Assembly: GCA_946886475.1 (NCBI GenBank)
Contig: CAMPIQ010000013.1
Span: 1 to 43,786 of the forward strand
DNA from: an uncultured Chitinophagales bacterium
GTDB taxonomy: Bacteria; Bacteroidota; Bacteroidia; Chitinophagales; Chitinophagaceae
Length of the DNA stretch: 43,786 nt
Direction of reading: 5' to 3'
This document shows positions 4,028 through 43,517 of this stretch, one piece after another. The notes beneath the pieces are model-generated. The model did no database searches. It saw only the letters and a program-made list of their open reading frames with translations, and was not told the DNA's origin. The position numbers and the translations under genes are program-made. Each line of letters opens with the position of its first letter. The stretch's first letter is position 1.

Positions 4028-4936
4028 ATGTGGCAGCAACTGCTTAAGCAAATACGTAAAGGAGATATCAGGTCTTTATCAAAAGCAATTTCATTTGTTG
4101 AAAATGAACAGGAAGGTTATGAAAACCTGCTTGAACAATTGCCGCCTTCAAACGCAATTATAATTGGCATTACGGGACCACCGGGTGCTGGAAAAAGTAC
4201 GCTGACAGATGGATTGATAAAAGAAATTATTGATGAGGGGAAAAAACTGGCTGTGTTATGTGTGGATCCTTCTTCACCTTTTCATGCTGGTGCAGTGCTG
4301 GGCGACCGCATCAGGATGAGCAGCTGGTATACGCATCCCGGTGTTTTCATCAGGTCTCTGGCTACAAGAGGTTCTATGGGCGGCCTGCATCCCAGGATCG
4401 TAGAGATCACTGAACTGGCAAAAGCCACAGGGTTTGATTACATTATTATTGAAACGGTTGGTGTGGGCCAGAGCGAGGTGGAGATCGCAGGCCTGGCAGA
4501 TACAACGGTAGTGGTAATGGTGCCTGAGGCAGGAGATGACGTGCAGGCAATGAAGGCTGGCCTGATGGAGATAGCTGATATTTTTGTGGTGAATAAAAGT
4601 GACAGACCCGGAGCCGATACATTTGTAAAAAATCTAAGGTTGATGTTGTCCCCGGTTTTTTCAGCCAAAAAAAATGAAGCACCCATTATCAAAACCATAA
4701 GTACGGAACACCAGGGTATCAGCGAACTTTTTACTGCCATCAAAAATCACCAGGTGCAGGGAAACTACAATGAAAGAAAGTACTGGTTGCTGGCTGAAAG
4801 AGCATGGAAGCTGGTGCAGCAGCACAGGATGAAGGATGTCCGCAAAGATGTTCTGGCCGCGGAAATAAAAAAAACAGATCCTGAAAGTTTTAATTTATAC
4901 AGGTTTGCCCGGCAGTATTATTCCAATAAGGAATAA
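4028..4936 (+). CDS. meaB: MeaB/ArgK-type GTPase, methylmalonyl-CoA mutase chaperone
   Basis: This G3E-family GTPase loads and protects the adenosylcobalamin cofactor of methylmalonyl-CoA mutase in the cytoplasm. Motifs seen are Walker A GPPGAGKST (residues 50-58), VDPSSPF, GDRIRM, RSLATRGSMGG, ETVGVGQSE (switch region) and the guanine-specificity motif NKSD. I chose the ATG at 4028 (302 residues, starting MWQQLLKQ). An upstream in-frame start would add 21 residues with no homology feel and would run back across the divergent gene's start. The mutase subunits are not in this window. The gene is followed after 32 bases by a GT2 gene on the same strand, so co-transcription with the glycan genes is likely even though the functions are unrelated. 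Confidence 0.92.
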   Translation: MWQQLLKQIRKGDIRSLSKAISFVENEQEGYENLLEQLPPSNAIIIGITGPPGAGKSTLTDGLIKEIIDEGKKLAVLCVDPSSPFHAGAVLGDRIRMSSWYTHPGVFIRSLATRGSMGGLHPRIVEITELAKATGFDYIIIETVGVGQSEVEIAGLADTTVVVMVPEAGDDVQAMKAGLMEIADIFVVNKSDRPGADTFVKNLRLMLSPVFSAKKNEAPIIKTISTEHQGISELFTAIKNHQVQGNYNERKYWLLAERAWKLVQQHRMKDVRKDVLAAEIKKTDPESFNLYRFARQYYSNKE

Positions 4937-4968
4937 CTTATTTTGCAACAATATCCAAGTTTTTCACA

Positions 4969-5766
4969 TTGCACACATCATCTCTCATCATTGCAACCTA
5001 CAACTGGCCAAAGGCTTTGGATCTTTGCCTTCAAAGTGTTTTGAATCAAAAGGTTTTGCCTGGTGAAGTGATCATTGCAGATGATGGGTCGGGAGAGGAA
5101 ACAAGACAGTTGATAGAAAAACATAAAAAGAATTTTCCCATTCCCTTGGTTCATGTATGGCATGAAGATGCAGGTTTCCGGCTTTCAGCCATCCGCAATA
5201 AAGCAATTGCCGTATCAGGTGGAGACTATATCATTCAGATAGATGGCGACCTCATACTTCATCCCTATTTTATTCACGACCATCTTGAAGCCAGGCGGGC
5301 GCACCATTTTGTTGCAGGCAGCAGGGTAATGCTTAATCCGTCCACCACTGAAAATTTACTTGAGCACCGGTCCATTGATATAAAAAAGTTCAGAACAAAA
5401 GGAATGAGTTTTAATGATATGCGTAATAAGGCACTCAGGAGATGGCTGGCTGAACGGTATAAAACCAGTGGCCGTTTCACCTATTATGTTAAGGGTTGCA
5501 ATATGGCTTTTTATAAATCGGACCTGATTATGGTGAATGGTTACAATGAAGCATTCCAGGGCTGGGGAAGTGAGGACAGGGAGATTGCCATACGACTGAT
5601 CAATGCAGGTGTAAGGAAGCGTTCTTTGAAAATGGGTGCGCTTTGTTACCATCTTTATCATAAAATACCTTCACGGGATAAAGCCAAAGAAAATGAAGCG
5701 CTGATGTACCATGCCATTCATCAAAAAATGGTGGTGGCCAGTGTTGGACTTAACCAATATTTTTGA
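4969..5766 (+). CDS. Family 2 glycosyltransferase with TTG start
   Basis: The 265-residue protein is an inverting GT-A fold enzyme that would transfer a nucleotide-activated sugar during surface glycan assembly. The nucleotide-binding N-terminus is LIIATYN (residues 6-12), with ADDGSG (38-42), AGFRLSAIRNKAI (68-80) and the metal-binding DxD as IDGD (91-94). FQGWGSEDREIAIRL near residues 195-210 is the galactosyltransferase-like acceptor motif seen in chondroitin-polymerase-type GT2 enzymes. No ATG precedes the first conserved beta strand. TTG at 4969 is the best start, because the frame upstream to the meaB stop has no ATG or GTG. It overlaps or nearly abuts the methyltransferase gene that follows. 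Confidence 0.87.
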   Translation: MHTSSLIIATYNWPKALDLCLQSVLNQKVLPGEVIIADDGSGEETRQLIEKHKKNFPIPLVHVWHEDAGFRLSAIRNKAIAVSGGDYIIQIDGDLILHPYFIHDHLEARRAHHFVAGSRVMLNPSTTENLLEHRSIDIKKFRTKGMSFNDMRNKALRRWLAERYKTSGRFTYYVKGCNMAFYKSDLIMVNGYNEAFQGWGSEDREIAIRLINAGVRKRSLKMGALCYHLYHKIPSRDKAKENEALMYHAIHQKMVVASVGLNQYF

Positions 5767-5768
5767 GT

Positions 5769-6488
5769 ATGTCGAGAAAGGAGAAATTACCCCGGATCAG
5801 TAACTGGCAGATCAGCAGCAAGCATCCTCATTACATTCATTATTATTTTCTGATCAGGGACATCAGGGAAGCCATTACCAATTATGCAAAAGGAGATTTT
5901 CTTGACCTCGGATGTGGTAACAAACCTTACGAACCGCTTTATGCTCCTTTAACCAGTTCCAGCATAGGATGTGATATCATTCAAAGCGATAAAAACCGGG
6001 TAGATGTGATCTGTCCTGTTACGGAGCTCAACTTCCCTGACCATCATTTTGATACCATATTTTGTACGCAGGTGCTGGAACATGTGTTTGAACATGATAA
6101 AATGATGCGGGAAATTTACCGGGTATTGAAGCCGGGCGGCAGGGTGATCCTTACGGTTCCCTTTGCTTGGGAACTTCATGAAGAGCCTTATGATTTTTTC
6201 AGATACACCAAACATGCATTAAAGGAGTTGTTTGTAAGATCCGGATTTGATATTGATTATATCAGGCCTAATGGTGGAAAATGGGCTGCTATTTACCAGT
6301 TAAGAAATAATATGCTTTATGATTCCTTTGCAAAGCACAAAACATTCCTGAATAAGATCAGGAAGATATTTTTTATGGAATTACGGTTTACGCAACTCAG
6401 AAATCATTTTGCCATATGGGTAGATAAAAAATTCCCCAATGAAGTATTCACGCTTAATTACATAGTAGTAGCACAAAAGCCTGGTTGA
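5769..6488 (+). CDS. Class I SAM-dependent methyltransferase
   Basis: This is a 239-residue protein with the Methyltransf_11 type of fold. Motif I is FLDLGCGNKPY (about residues 44-54), followed by IGCDIIQSD and then FCTQVLEHVFEHDKMM with the typical RVLKPGGRVILTVPF stretch. The ATG at 5769 lies 2 bases after the stop of the GT2 gene. A TTG two codons earlier overlaps that stop and cannot be excluded. Placed between two glycosyltransferases, it probably methylates a sugar or a lipid-linked glycan intermediate; this is inference from context, since the fold alone does not give the substrate. Confidence 0.85.
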   Translation: MSRKEKLPRISNWQISSKHPHYIHYYFLIRDIREAITNYAKGDFLDLGCGNKPYEPLYAPLTSSSIGCDIIQSDKNRVDVICPVTELNFPDHHFDTIFCTQVLEHVFEHDKMMREIYRVLKPGGRVILTVPFAWELHEEPYDFFRYTKHALKELFVRSGFDIDYIRPNGGKWAAIYQLRNNMLYDSFAKHKTFLNKIRKIFFMELRFTQLRNHFAIWVDKKFPNEVFTLNYIVVAQKPG

Positions 6489-6624
6489 CTTTTATTTTTT
6501 ACCCGATATAGCGGGGGTTTTATTGATTTTTTTCCCATTGATCAAACATCCATACGATAATTTTCTATTCAACGGATGGGAAAAAAAACATTAGTTATAA
6601 ATAAACCAGGAATAATTTTATTCA

Positions 6625-7758
6625 ATGTCAATCTTCTTTATAAGCCTGATGAGTGGAAGCCCCTGGGGCGGAAGTGAAGAACTCTGGTATGCTTCAGCAT
6701 TACGGGCAGCGCACAAAGGCCATAAGGTGGCAATTGCAGTTTACCACTGGCCTGAGAAGGAGATGAGAATGAAAGAACTGGCCGATGCCGGATGTGAAAT
6801 CCATTATTTACCCAATAAAGGAAGAAAAAAGAAGGGTATCCCAGATCTTGTGCAAAATAAGATCACCAAATGGTTCCGCATAAAAAAAGCCATCAATGCA
6901 TTACCTGTTGAATTATATGACCTGGTGGTAATTAACCAGGGATATTTTGAAGTAACAACCAATACCTGGAAAAGTTTTAACAGCAGGCTTAAAAATTATA
7001 TACTCCTCTTTCATAATTATAGTGAAAATGAAAAGATAAAACCTGATAAGGCACTTATTCTTCATACATGGATCAGGAATGCTTCTTTGAATTTATTTGC
7101 TTCTTCCAGGATCAGGGCCATACTTGAGGACAGGCTGAACATATCCATCACCAATGGAGATATCCTTTTAAATCCGGTAAGTTTTATTCCACCGGAAAAG
7201 CCAACTCCATTTCCGCCCTTACATAATGGCAATTTCCGCTTTGTTGTACTGGCTGCGCTTGATGTTGACCGTAAAGCACAGGACCAGCTGATCAGGGCGC
7301 TTTCAGCCAGTATCTGGAAAGAAAGAAACTGGACACTTCATTTATATGGTGATGGAAAGGATGAAAAAAAGCTAAGAAGACTGATTGAAAGAGCAGGCTT
7401 AAAAGAAAAGGTCTTTCTTGAAGGCCATGTTACCGGTGTAGAAAAAATTTTAAAAGAAGCACACCTTTTATTGCAGGTATCAAGAATAGATGCCATGCCA
7501 TTATCAGTTGTAGAAGCACTGGCCCTAAGCAGACCGGTGGTTGCCAGTAAAATTGGCGACATGCCCCAGTGGGTCCTGTTCAATGAAAATGGATGGATCT
7601 GTCATTCTGCAGATGCAACGGAAATTGAACGCATCCTGCACCTGGTGTGGGCTAACAGGAGTAGCTGGCATAAAATGGGCGAAAGGTCTTATGAGATTTT
7701 TAGAAAAAAATATCCCCCGTCCCCGGAAAATTATTTCCTTGAGCAGATAGGTTATTGA
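6625..7758 (+). CDS. Family 4 glycosyltransferase
   Basis: This retaining GT-B enzyme has 377 residues. The N-terminal domain opens with FISLMSGSPWGGSEELW, the glycine-rich acceptor-side loop common in GT4 enzymes. The C-terminal nucleotide-sugar domain contains FVVLAALDVDRKAQDQLI, LHLYGDGKDEKKLRRL, VFLEGHV and then SRIDAMPLSVVEALALSRPVV with the Glu of the EX7E-type motif. It follows the methyltransferase after 136 AT-rich bases and most likely belongs to the same surface-glycan set. Its end overlaps the convergent small membrane protein gene by 7 bases. Confidence 0.88.
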   Translation: MSIFFISLMSGSPWGGSEELWYASALRAAHKGHKVAIAVYHWPEKEMRMKELADAGCEIHYLPNKGRKKKGIPDLVQNKITKWFRIKKAINALPVELYDLVVINQGYFEVTTNTWKSFNSRLKNYILLFHNYSENEKIKPDKALILHTWIRNASLNLFASSRIRAILEDRLNISITNGDILLNPVSFIPPEKPTPFPPLHNGNFRFVVLAALDVDRKAQDQLIRALSASIWKERNWTLHLYGDGKDEKKLRRLIERAGLKEKVFLEGHVTGVEKILKEAHLLLQVSRIDAMPLSVVEALALSRPVVASKIGDMPQWVLFNENGWICHSADATEIERILHLVWANRSSWHKMGERSYEIFRKKYPPSPENYFLEQIGY

Positions 7759-7985
7759 TCTGATTGTTTATTCTTCTTCCACCATCTGAACCCGATCACA
7801 CCAATAATGGCCAGTGGGGTCATAGCAAGGTAGAGGATACCTGCGTTTAATCCCCTGGCAGGTTTTTCACCCATTTGTTCGGCAGTTCTTGTACAAATGG
7901 AACATTGTGCTTCTGCAATTTGAACAGTGAAAATGAAAGCAACCATGAAGAGCAGGGTGATGATTTTAAAGCCCGCGTTTTTCAT
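7752..7985 (-). CDS. Small exported membrane protein with a CxxC pair
   Basis: This 77-residue protein starts with a signal peptide (ITLLFMVAFIFTVQIAEA). A short external part CSICTRTAEQMGEKPARG follows, then one membrane segment (ILYLAMTPLAIIGVIGF) and a basic tail. The CSIC pair just after the predicted cleavage site could form a disulfide or bind a metal. I do not recognise a named family, though small proteins of this form occur in other Bacteroidota. The predicted -7 box ends 4 bases before the ATG, so the messenger may be leaderless. Confidence 0.7.
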   Translation of the reverse strand: MKNAGFKIITLLFMVAFIFTVQIAEAQCSICTRTAEQMGEKPARGLNAGILYLAMTPLAIIGVIGFRWWKKNKQSDQ

Positions 7986-7989
7986 GCTG

Positions 7990-7997
7990 CAAATGTA
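7990..7997 (-). promoter_or_regulatory. -7 promoter box for the small CxxC membrane protein
   Basis: On the minus strand this reads TACATTTG, an exact TAnnTTTG match, ending only 4 bases before the ATG at 7983-7985. A TTTC lies 21 bases upstream, near the expected -33 position. Transcription would start at or within a base or two of the start codon. Confidence 0.45.
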
Positions 7998-8076
7998 AGC
8001 CGGTTTAGAATAAGCACCGAAAGCAGTTGTTAATTCATGTTTAAAGCCTCGGTCATATCCGGATCATTCGGCCGTT

Positions 8077-8736
8077 TTACGGGTAAAAAAATTTTTCTTC
8101 CGGAATGTGCACCTTAGGTCCCAGAAATTTTGGTTCAGTATTGAAAATATAATCTAAAAACAGTTTTACCCTGGCCAGTTTTTCGCGGGCCTGTGTTTTC
8201 AACCCGGCTGAATTAGAAACATCCCGTGCATTGAAACCAATTGCAGTAATTCCTTCTTTTTTTGCAATGTACAGTGCTCTCTGGTTGTGGAATTCCTGGG
8301 AGATGATGGTTACAGCGTCCTGTGAAAAGATCTCCCTGAGCCTGATCATTGAATCGAAGGTTCTAAAGCCGGCGAAGTCCAGGTAGATCCTCGAAGAATC
8401 GATGCCTGCAGCAATCAGATCTCCTCTCATCATTTCAGGTTCATTATAATTAGCGCTGCTGTTATCACCACTAATGATCAGGTAATCGATCTTTCTTTCT
8501 TTCATCAGGATGATAGCCGCATCGATCCTGTATTTATAGTATGGATTAATGGAGCTGTCATTCAGAAATTTTCCTGTGCCAGGTAAAAGACCTACATGAT
8601 TGTAAGGCACCTTCCTAACATCCGAATAAATTTTGTCTTTGGAAGATGATGCAACCTGATTGTCGCAATAGAATATGAGCAGAGCAAGGATGCCCAAAAA
8701 AATAGAAAATATAATCAGGATGCGTTTTTTGGTCAT
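8077..8736 (-). CDS. SanA/YdcF-like (DUF218) membrane-anchored protein
   Basis: The 219-residue protein has one N-terminal membrane anchor (ILIIFSIFLGILALLIFYC) and a DUF218-type domain outside. Supporting motifs are GLLPGTGKFLNDSSINPYYKYRIDAAI, quoted as GLLPGTGKF and YKYRIDAA, then YLIISGDNSS, a MMRGDLIAAGI stretch, YLDFAGFRTFDSMIRL, and VTIISQEFHNQRALYIAK, all in the order known for SanA. SanA of enterobacteria affects the envelope barrier to vancomycin, and related ElyC acts in cell-wall carrier metabolism. A similar envelope role is inferred here. The gene appears to be a single transcription unit. Confidence 0.85.
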   Translation of the reverse strand: MTKKRILIIFSIFLGILALLIFYCDNQVASSSKDKIYSDVRKVPYNHVGLLPGTGKFLNDSSINPYYKYRIDAAIILMKERKIDYLIISGDNSSANYNEPEMMRGDLIAAGIDSSRIYLDFAGFRTFDSMIRLREIFSQDAVTIISQEFHNQRALYIAKKEGITAIGFNARDVSNSAGLKTQAREKLARVKLFLDYIFNTEPKFLGPKVHIPEEKFFYP

Positions 8737-42348: not shown

Positions 42349-42579
42349 AAATTCAGGTTATCCCAGTTGGCGCAAATTGCGGTTTGGTACCTGTTGTGAA
42401 TTACGAAGCTAACTAAAGTGAGAAAAATTGCATCAGAACAGCATATTTCATAATTAAACATGAGGAGGTATGGATAAAAAAAGGAATTATTCAACTCTAC
42501 TCCTTTTCATTTATTGGAAAAATGAATAATAAAAGCCAATGAAAGAATTCTGGTGGTTTTTGGTCTGACCCCAATGCAT
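42349..42579. other. Gap part 2: no gene found
   Basis: About 230 bases between the Fic-like fragment and the RNA gene's terminator. No coding potential is seen except for very short frames (a 19-codon plus-strand frame starting at 42471 with AGGAGGT too close to its ATG). I do not support it as a gene. Confidence 0.4.
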
Positions 42580-42623
42580 AAAAAAACCCTGTAAACACAA
42601 GCGCAGGCGGCCGGTTTACAGGG
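42580..42623 (-). terminator. Intrinsic terminator of the minus-strand RNA gene
   Basis: Arms 42587-42596 (CCCTGTAAAC) and 42614-42623 (GTTTACAGGG) form a perfect 10-base-pair stem. Seven T follow on the minus strand (A at 42580-42586). The 17-base loop contains CGCAGGCGG-type GC-rich sequence. It lies 30 bases past the T-arm/acceptor-like end of the RNA. Confidence 0.87.
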
Positions 42624-42940
42624 CAAGTACACACATGAAAAGTAAGAGACAAGCTGTAGGGGGAGGAGTCGAACCTCCACGGGGCAGTTAGCTGCAACAC
42701 ATGCTTCGACTTCGTTTAGTTCAGCATGAAGCAGAAGCAAAAGTGGTCAACCCTGGACGGGCCTCCCGGTTGTAGCCGGGACGTCGGCACTATGTTGCGT
42801 TTATCCTGTGATCCCCACCCTCGAGACAAGAGGGCATGTCTGCCTAAGGTTTCATCACCCCACAATGTTAGAGCGGAGAAAGAGTGCGGGAGCGAGGAAA
42901 GATCCTGGCTGCTTTCAATCTTCCGTTCTTTCAAATAACT
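42580..42940 (-). ncRNA. Structured non-coding RNA with tRNA-like T arm, family not recognised
   Basis: About 360 bases are transcribed on the minus strand from a full-consensus promoter (42945-42975) to an intrinsic terminator. The section is visibly richer in G and C than the flanks and holds no supportable protein. Structure: a 5' hairpin (42896-42903 with 42918-42924), a TCCCGG/CCGGGA hairpin (42764-42769, 42776-42781) extended by GACG/CGTC, and GTGAT/ATCAC (42808-42812 with 42854-42858). It also has the long-range pairs GCAACA/TGTTGC (42694-42699 with 42793-42798) and, crossing that one, ACATGC/GCATGT (42699-42704 with 42834-42839). The last feature is a T arm with a 5-base-pair stem and TTCGACT loop (42662-42678), followed by an acceptor-like CCCTACA that could pair with TGTGGGG at 42858-42864 with one G-U. 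No RNase P, SRP or 6S landmark and no tmRNA tag or TTCGAC 5' element is seen. A divergent tmRNA-like molecule is one possibility. Confidence 0.6.
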
Positions 42941-42944
42941 AAAA

Positions 42945-42975
42945 CAAAAATAGGAATGGTTAAACAATATTCAAA
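42945..42975 (-). promoter_or_regulatory. Full-consensus Bacteroidota promoter of the RNA gene
   Basis: On the minus strand TTTG (42972-42975) is separated by exactly 19 bases from TATTTTTG (42945-42952). This fits the -33 TTTG/-7 TAnnTTTG consensus of the Bacteroidota sigma factor completely, the only site in the window where I found both halves. The start of transcription is expected near 42940. Confidence 0.75.
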
Positions 42976-43034
42976 CACTGTGCAAAATATTTAGAATCTG
43001 TTCAATATCTTTATGTATCATTGAATAATATCTA

Positions 43035-43049
43035 AAACCAACCTGGTTT
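43035..43049 (+). promoter_or_regulatory. Palindrome abutting the Lrp/AsnC regulator start
   Basis: AAACCA (43035-43040) and TGGTTT (43044-43049) form a perfect 6-base inverted repeat with a 3-base spacer. The right arm ends directly before the ATG. It is a candidate operator for the regulator itself, or a translation-blocking hairpin. Confidence 0.35.
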
Positions 43050-43517
43050 ATGGCGGCAATTTTGAATATTGACAAATTAGATCTGAAGATCATCCAGCAA
43101 TTAATGCAGGATGCCAGCATGTCCTATGCGGAAATGGGAAAAAAATTGTTTGTTTCTGCAGGCACCATTCACGTACGTATTAAAAAAATGCAGGAATCGG
43201 GTATCATAAGCGGCATGAAATACCAGGTGGATCTTAAAAAAATGGGATACGATGTGATCGCATTCATTGGTATCTACCTTGAAAAAAGTTCTTTGTATGA
43301 TACTGTGGCCAGAGAGCTGAAAAAAATTCCCGAGATCGTACGCATGAATTATACTACAGGCAATTACAGCATTTTCGCAGAGATCGTGTGCAGGGATATT
43401 GGTCAACTTCGTGCTATATTACACGACGAACTGCAAAAAATAAAAGGCATTGAACGGACCGAGACCTTTATCTCATTGGAAGAAAGCCTGAACCGCAGTG
43501 TTACTGTAGCCCCATAG
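43050..43517 (+). CDS. Lrp/AsnC family transcriptional regulator
   Basis: The 155-residue protein has the Lrp/AsnC plan. The N-terminal helix-turn-helix is LDLKIIQQLMQDASMSYAEMGKKL, quoted as LDLKIIQQLMQDAS, followed by VSAGTIHVRIKKMQESGII. The C-terminal RAM ligand-binding domain follows (about 72-145; YDVIAFIGIYLEKS, RMNYTTGNYSIFAEIVC). Such proteins bind an amino acid or other small ligand and regulate transcription as octamers or dimers. The ligand and targets cannot be read from the sequence. A palindrome just before the ATG and the divergent RNA promoter 75 bases upstream are the nearest possible targets. Confidence 0.92.
   Translation: MAAILNIDKLDLKIIQQLMQDASMSYAEMGKKLFVSAGTIHVRIKKMQESGIISGMKYQVDLKKMGYDVIAFIGIYLEKSSLYDTVARELKKIPEIVRMNYTTGNYSIFAEIVCRDIGQLRAILHDELQKIKGIERTETFISLEESLNRSVTVAP

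Follow-up and report, generated by a model that had tools for sequence, protein, structure and literature searches.

What is encoded on the minus strand between positions 42580 and 42975 of this DNA (hereafter the window, meaning the whole stretch of 43,786 nucleotides that was analyzed)? An earlier note, made from the sequence alone, had proposed a structured RNA gene equipped with a perfect promoter, a tRNA-type T arm and a strong terminator, perhaps related to tmRNA. On the comparative evidence given below, the locus encodes a previously unannotated, tRNA-derived noncoding RNA, that is, a cloverleaf with an Asp-type anticodon and a giant extra arm. The Bacteroidota-type promoter, TTTG-N19-TATTTTTG, occupies positions 42945..42975 of the minus strand. 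When the whole window was scanned on both strands, TTTG-N19-TANNTTTG occurred a single time, at 42975-42945, which confirmed that this is the sole full-consensus promoter of the window. A TANNTTTG box lies at a comparable distance in the closest relatives (L001, L002 and L012), and the motif TANNTT(T)G was present within 110 nt in 38 of 76 loci, a weak excess over the mean of 24 and maximum of 35 obtained in 50 shuffles. A 5′ leader of approximately 70 nt (42866..42938, minus strand), whose start we infer from the promoter and which would be removed by RNase P, precedes the RNA core. Downstream, the predicted intrinsic terminator of 10 bp plus seven T was confirmed on the same strand (42580..42623; stem 42587-42596/42614-42623, T7 at 42586-42580); its 74-nt stretch yields −18.9 kcal/mol, and 63 of 72 loci have a terminator-like hairpin in the 90 nt that follow the RNA, a count made without a shuffled control. 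The minimum free energy of the transcript is only mildly unusual (z-score −2.27, with 4 of 100 shuffles equally good), and the strong evidence for an RNA gene is comparative rather than thermodynamic.

The Rfam search that the earlier note had proposed brought no family to its gathering score in the window, and at the same score the RNA was missed in five host loci. The best Rfam match at E values up to 10 within 42400-43050 was NmsRb (RF02877), which was rejected at an E value of 0.061 and 26.4 bits versus a cut-off of 52 bits; it covered the T arm and the terminator. ARAGORN made no call at the window RNA and none in 12 host loci. A search of the literature, including passages of a 2010 motif survey (PMC2864571), returned nothing describing this RNA; reports that are not open or are worded differently may exist.

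To collect homologues, we retrieved 80 loci through the neighboring gene (43050-43517), with titles naming Chitinophagaceae genera, Chitinophagales, Sphingobacteriales or Bacteroidetes bacteria. An RNA homologue lay beside the AsnC-type gene in 75 of these loci; of the five exceptions, two (L039 and L040) carry the gene no more than 100 bases from a contig end, whereas three (L033, L069 and L075) gave no match although their flanks are complete. In total, 91 members of 121 to 213 nt were cut from these loci and the window, with a second partial copy in L051 omitted, and removal of rows at least 96% alike left 65, of which 57 long ones constitute alignment A1 and 8 short ones were kept apart. 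Counting the window, 15 of 76 loci have two tandem copies, and in 12 of those a short copy (121-137 nt) is followed by a long one. Other repeats were seen in L041 (Sediminibacterium goheungense; 4900-5720, minus strand), where the 3′ part and terminator are repeated eight more times, 91-100 nt apart, downstream of one full copy, and in L108, where two partial copies comprising only the variable and T arms (946-1059 and 1264-1377) sit beside a full one.

Model R1, which scores 151 bits on the window core (itself one of its 57 training rows), found matches at an E value of 0.001 in 74 of the 97 genomes sampled from one family; 70 of these genomes scored 123 bits or more and four were weak (about 45 bits or less). 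In a 296-genome sample, 165 genomes matched, a number that overstates the family; judged by length, most of these matches are probably ordinary class II tRNAs (about 73-88 nt, up to 60.5 bits), and 31 genomes matched at 79 bits or more. A broader model, R2, found the RNA at an E value of 1e-14 in 40 of 395 genomes sampled from the phylum Bacteroidota and in 50 of 295 sampled from the class, both of which are lower bounds because the filters were strict; the two samples overlap, and the genome of L002 (G001, Flavisolibacter longurius) is in both. No blastn match was obtained in plasmids. Collectively, the model searches, which covered genomes of the window's own phylum, show the predicted RNA to be conserved across part of the Bacteroidota and support the proposed conserved structured RNA gene with its promoter, T arm and terminator.

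How this RNA is folded emerged from pair counts in the alignments, which show a complete tRNA cloverleaf of class II type with a Leu-like D arm and variable-arm base. In the window, the core runs from position −1 to C74 (42653..42865, minus strand). The acceptor-like CCCTACA of the earlier note is present, but its partner had been missed: UGUGGGG (42858..42864) pairs with 42655-42661 to give a 7-bp acceptor stem, whose 3′ strand CCCUACA is followed by G73 (42654) and C74 (42653; 3′ segment 42653..42661). The D arm (42836..42855) has the stem AUG/CAU and a loop with GG..AGA; the anticodon arm CCCUC-UUGUCUC-GAGGG (42818..42834) places the anticodon GUC at 42827-42825 and C38 at 42823; and the T arm, with the 5-bp stem and TTCGACT loop that had been recognized before, reads GGAGG-UUCGACU-CCUCC (42662..42678). 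All four stems (7-bp acceptor, D, 5-bp/7-nt anticodon and 5-bp/7-nt T) show compensatory changes and have at least 91% of cells paired in every one of four sets. In A1, built without fitting to the model, 95.7% of cells are paired and double-sided changes occur in 18 of 41 pairs, while none of 500 shuffles reached as high and slid versions fell to 45-57% paired. A1 hardly varies in the D and anticodon stems and hence carries little information on either; in more distant members reached by R1, however, changes in the anticodon stem come with matching partners. In the mixed alignment A4, double-sided changes are found in 30 of 41 pairs, and again 0 of 500 shuffles were as high, although this count leans towards the structure since A4 was fitted to R1. 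The acceptor helix has double-sided changes in two pairs of A1 and five of A4. The D stem occurs as AUG/CAU, UUG/CAA, GUG/CAC, ACG/CGU and, once, GCG/CGC, and the T stem as GGAGG/CCUCC, GUAGG/CCUAC, GAAGG/CCUUC and others. The covariation check on related genomes that had been suggested thus yielded compensatory changes, as judged by pair counts against shuffles. Two other pairings were discarded: the first hairpins given by RNAalifold in the D-arm region were replaced by the tRNA D stem, because the latter covaries and position 26 alternates between G and A, and a GACA/UGUC loop pairing failed in that members with GCCG still keep GUC.

Between the anticodon and T arms lies the giant variable arm, defined from A1 and its pair counts (42679..42817, minus strand). 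With 139 nt in the window it is the longest seen; its length is 88-139 nt in A1, 39-106 nt in more distant host members (39-139 nt in hosts overall), 47-64 nt in short tandem copies and 21-83 nt in viral members. A 4-bp base stem (42816-42813/42684-42681) is followed by helix P3 (42798-42791/42701-42694), by a variable hairpin in the P4 region (about 42785-42759), where the window's own P4 fits the common register poorly, and by P5 around GGUUGACCA (42755-42753/42743-42741), whose hairpin loop, GGUYGACCA, is conserved. P3 is the long-range GCAACA/TGTTGC helix described earlier; it stands as a position and covaries, though of the 57 rows only the window has precisely these letters. The pseudoknot proposed from a crossing ACATGC/GCATGT pair did not survive comparison, because GCATGT is present in 1 of 57 rows, namely, the window itself. 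In the window's member, P5 and P3 are also separated by an insertion of 32 nt (42707-42738), in columns that no more than 3 of 57 rows occupy, and L059 carries a different insertion at this site.

The tRNA-like ends, together with the T arm, around an inserted structured RNA recall tmRNA (RF00023), and a divergent tmRNA relative had indeed been suspected. We give practically no credence to a divergent or second tmRNA. A canonical tmRNA scored above the Rfam cut-off in all 13 genomes of relatives searched, which argues that the present RNA is not the tmRNA. Moreover, the window RNA has an anticodon arm, gives no RF00023 match and contains no conserved tag reading frame. A 15-codon AUG frame is found in 41 of 57 A1 rows, but its AUG is D-stem sequence that is lost elsewhere with compensatory D-stem changes, and core lengths are evenly spread over the three classes modulo 3. 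Y RNAs, too, contain tRNA-like modules, YrlA among them, and a noncoding RNA bound by a Ro60 orthologue would be a bacterial counterpart. This reading is highly improbable, given that the full acceptor and anticodon arms are present and that the RNA does not generally occur together with a Ro/TROVE protein: of 18 genomes, 5 have a TROVE/Ro domain, and among the 14 RNA-bearing ones, 4 had it and 10 did not.

The family extends to viral contigs whose records give no host. A pattern scan identified 24 viral contigs, of which 23 hold a full member and the other a truncated one. A further full member came from a 636-kb phage record that had initially surfaced as a weak blastn match, which brings the viral records with full members to 24. 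Several viral members sit within tRNA arrays; in L131, for example, gaps of 4 nt and 6 nt separate the RNA gene from a preceding tRNA-Ser and a following tRNA-Leu, respectively. ARAGORN called seven short viral forms (91-98 nt) tRNA-Asp(gtc), which points to a continuum from near-normal tRNA to giant-armed RNA. The host forms tried escape ARAGORN, and Rfam misses the family.

Conserved residues were tallied in a census of 122 members, consisting of the 57 A1 rows, 33 of 35 A2 rows, 24 of 46 A3 rows and the 8 short copies; the A2 rows dropped were two fragments, and the A3 rows dropped were weaker matches (ordinary tRNAs, a second phage RNA set described below and the cut member L140). All but L017, an A1 row, were parsed. 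The tertiary residues U8, A14, U54, U55, C56 and A58 occur without exception in the 121 parsed members; so do G18 and G19, but these were a condition of parsing. Equally invariant are U1:A72, G2:C71, G73, C74, U35, C36 and C38, and G34 is found in 120 members, the remaining one having C34. It should be noted that the viral members other than L124 were found by a pattern fixing positions 34-38 and therefore give no independent support for those positions. Position 33 is U in 105 members, including all 24 viral ones, C in 12, A in 3 and G in 1. Position 37 is normally a purine in decoding tRNAs; here it is U in 115, C in 4 and G in 2 members and never A, so that 119 of 121 lack a purine, although U37 was part of the search pattern for 23 viral members. 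According to PMC9976931, the strong Asp determinants are G73, G34, U35, C36 and C38, and bacterial tRNA-Asp further conserves G1-C72, a pair described as crucial. The five strong determinants are complete in 120 of 121 parsed members, whereas all 121 have U1-A72 in place of G1-C72.

One alternative explanation is an ordinary, though bulky, tRNA-Asp(GUC) that reads GAC and GAU. The intact cloverleaf with its GUC anticodon, the frequent U33, the viral forms called tRNA-Asp(gtc) and the otherwise ordinary tRNA content of the phage arrays all argue for it, and the RNA shares G34, U35, C36, C38, G73 and G2:C71 with tRNA-Asp(GUC). It differs from that tRNA in U1:A72, in the U, C or G at position 37, in its class II body and in its giant arm; furthermore, an ordinary tRNA-Asp is also encoded in G001 and in the viral L131, L146, L147 and L148. 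We regard a decoding tRNA-Asp as unlikely, albeit the most serious of the alternatives.

The body of the RNA resembles another tRNA. It shares with tRNA-Leu the D-arm sequence (host tRNA-Leu UGGUGAAAUUGGUAGACACG), the layout of the variable-arm base (one base, stem, two bases), the 7-bp acceptor and the 5-bp T stem; it differs in having G73 rather than A73, a GUC anticodon loop and an internally structured arm that is several-fold longer. The long arm and G73 are also shared with tRNA-Sec, from which the RNA is set apart by its anticodon, GUC (120 of 121) instead of UCA, and by a −1:73 pair that is only partly kept. SerRS ignores the anticodon. According to PMC7609411, it reads the long variable arm plus G73 in tRNA-Ser and tRNA-Sec, and because the RNA has both, SerRS is a fair alternative as the cognate enzyme: a class II body of Leu type that combines G73 with a long arm might be a SerRS-like substrate with a serine-dependent or nonribosomal function. 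We nevertheless consider serine charging rather improbable, since it would leave the near-invariant GUC and C38 unexplained and since the D arm and arm base resemble those of host tRNA-Leu, the class II host tRNA with which they were compared.

The 3′ end of the RNA, an invariant G73-C74 followed by variable sequence, conforms to the tRNA genes of G001. In that genome, 45 tRNA matches, 30 of which were examined, gave 31 distinct ARAGORN tRNA genes, all with C74; 25 end there, 3 have CC and 3 have full CCA. This pattern suggests that the CCA of the RNA would be completed by the same enzyme as that of the G001 tRNAs. As for the synthetase, exactly one AspRS over the family cut-off was found in each of 18 genomes, further matches being weaker, so a second AspRS as a dedicated partner was dropped and no special synthetase is in sight.

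A further clue comes from the neighbor. The gene at 43050..43517 (plus strand), arranged head-to-head with the RNA, encodes an AsnC/Lrp-family regulator (Pfam PF01037 and PF13404); its best solved relative is 2CG4, AsnC (E value of 2.8e-33), and it scores 164 bits against NF008384 AsnC, under the cut-off of 227 bits. When 38 loci were chosen by the RNA alone, an AsnC-like gene was present in the flank of 27, all 27 head-to-head; 11 showed none in the flank examined, among them L086, cut by a contig end. Some genomes of these RNA-chosen loci had also supplied the 80 gene-chosen ones, so the sets are not fully independent. An AsnC-like gene was also found at 5 of 7 further RNA loci and at 0 of 35 tRNA and tmRNA control loci. 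The shared intergenic region (42866..43049) contains TTGAA boxes, the window pair beginning at 43005 and 42974 on the RNA strand, 31 bp apart. Upstream of the RNA, TTGAA boxes recur 31 bp apart: the 76 loci together have 33 pairs spaced by 28-32 bp, while 200 mononucleotide shuffles gave 0.2 on average and never more than 3, a test that overstates significance because the loci are related. We infer that these boxes may be a candidate AsnC operator. The association between the RNA and an AsnC-type gene points towards a regulatory circuit.

Taken together, we lean towards a tRNA-derived, possibly aspartylated RNA that is probably no normal decoder and that more likely has a regulatory or buffering role. 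Transcription of the RNA would start at its own promoter, RNase P and a 3′ tRNA nuclease would trim the ends, nucleotidyltransferase would complete the CCA, and aspartyl-tRNA synthetase would recognize and perhaps charge the product. It might then report or buffer Asp/Asn charging under the control of the head-to-head AsnC-type regulator, a putative link to Asp/Asn physiology, and the giant arm could provide an additional binding surface. Retention of the Asp identity residues along with a position 37 unlike that of decoders fits a synthetase-facing RNA; U33, mostly kept, adds nothing to that and, like the invariant U1:A72, counts against the reading. AspRS approaches the tRNA from the variable-arm side, so the giant arm could block it, and U1:A72 and the bulky arm speak against efficient charging by AspRS. 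The more specific proposal, that of a nondecoding, aspartylated regulatory tRNA that is charged by AspRS, coupled to AsnC as a sensor of Asp/Asn charge and captured by phages, and that would thereby stand alongside tmRNA and Y RNA as a functional class of its own, is put forward only tentatively, as a possible but doubtful extension. Because the residues read by AspRS are kept while position 37 departs from that of decoders, the RNA offers a direct test of tRNAs outside translation.

One more alternative is that the RNA is an uncharged tRNA mimic, a decoy or sponge for a hypothetical enzyme acting on tRNA-Asp-type anticodons, such as a modification enzyme or an anticodon nuclease, and as such useful to host and phage alike. 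Its occurrence in phage tRNA arrays, to which a giant-armed RNA is an unusual addition, and the conservation of GUC and C38 next to a position 37 that is not decoder-like would be in keeping with this. The invariant U1:A72, G2:C71, G73 and C74, however, suggest that the acceptor end matters too, and such a decoy is quite unlikely in our view.

The phage loci also contain a second set of RNAs, with tRNA-Leu-like ends (AGTCAGG..TGGCGGAATTGGTAGACG ... ACAGGTTCGAATCCTGTCCTGACTA) and A73, whose middles are nearly all different and show no anticodon arm by eye. In L130 they lie on the minus strand at 5129-5277, 6477-6617, 7682-7831, 7946-8053 and 8136-8252, and ARAGORN calls none of these five; others are found in L131, L141, L143, L144, L145, L187 and elsewhere. 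In the retrieved loci there were at least 172 matches to the 24-nt tail, at least 133 of them with a matching 5′ end within 260 nt; among those 133, at least 88 are longer than 95 nt and at least 81 have distinct middles, while the shorter ones may include ordinary tRNAs. Finally, the viral contigs L134 and L135 carry ARAGORN-predicted tmRNA genes alongside their members of the family.
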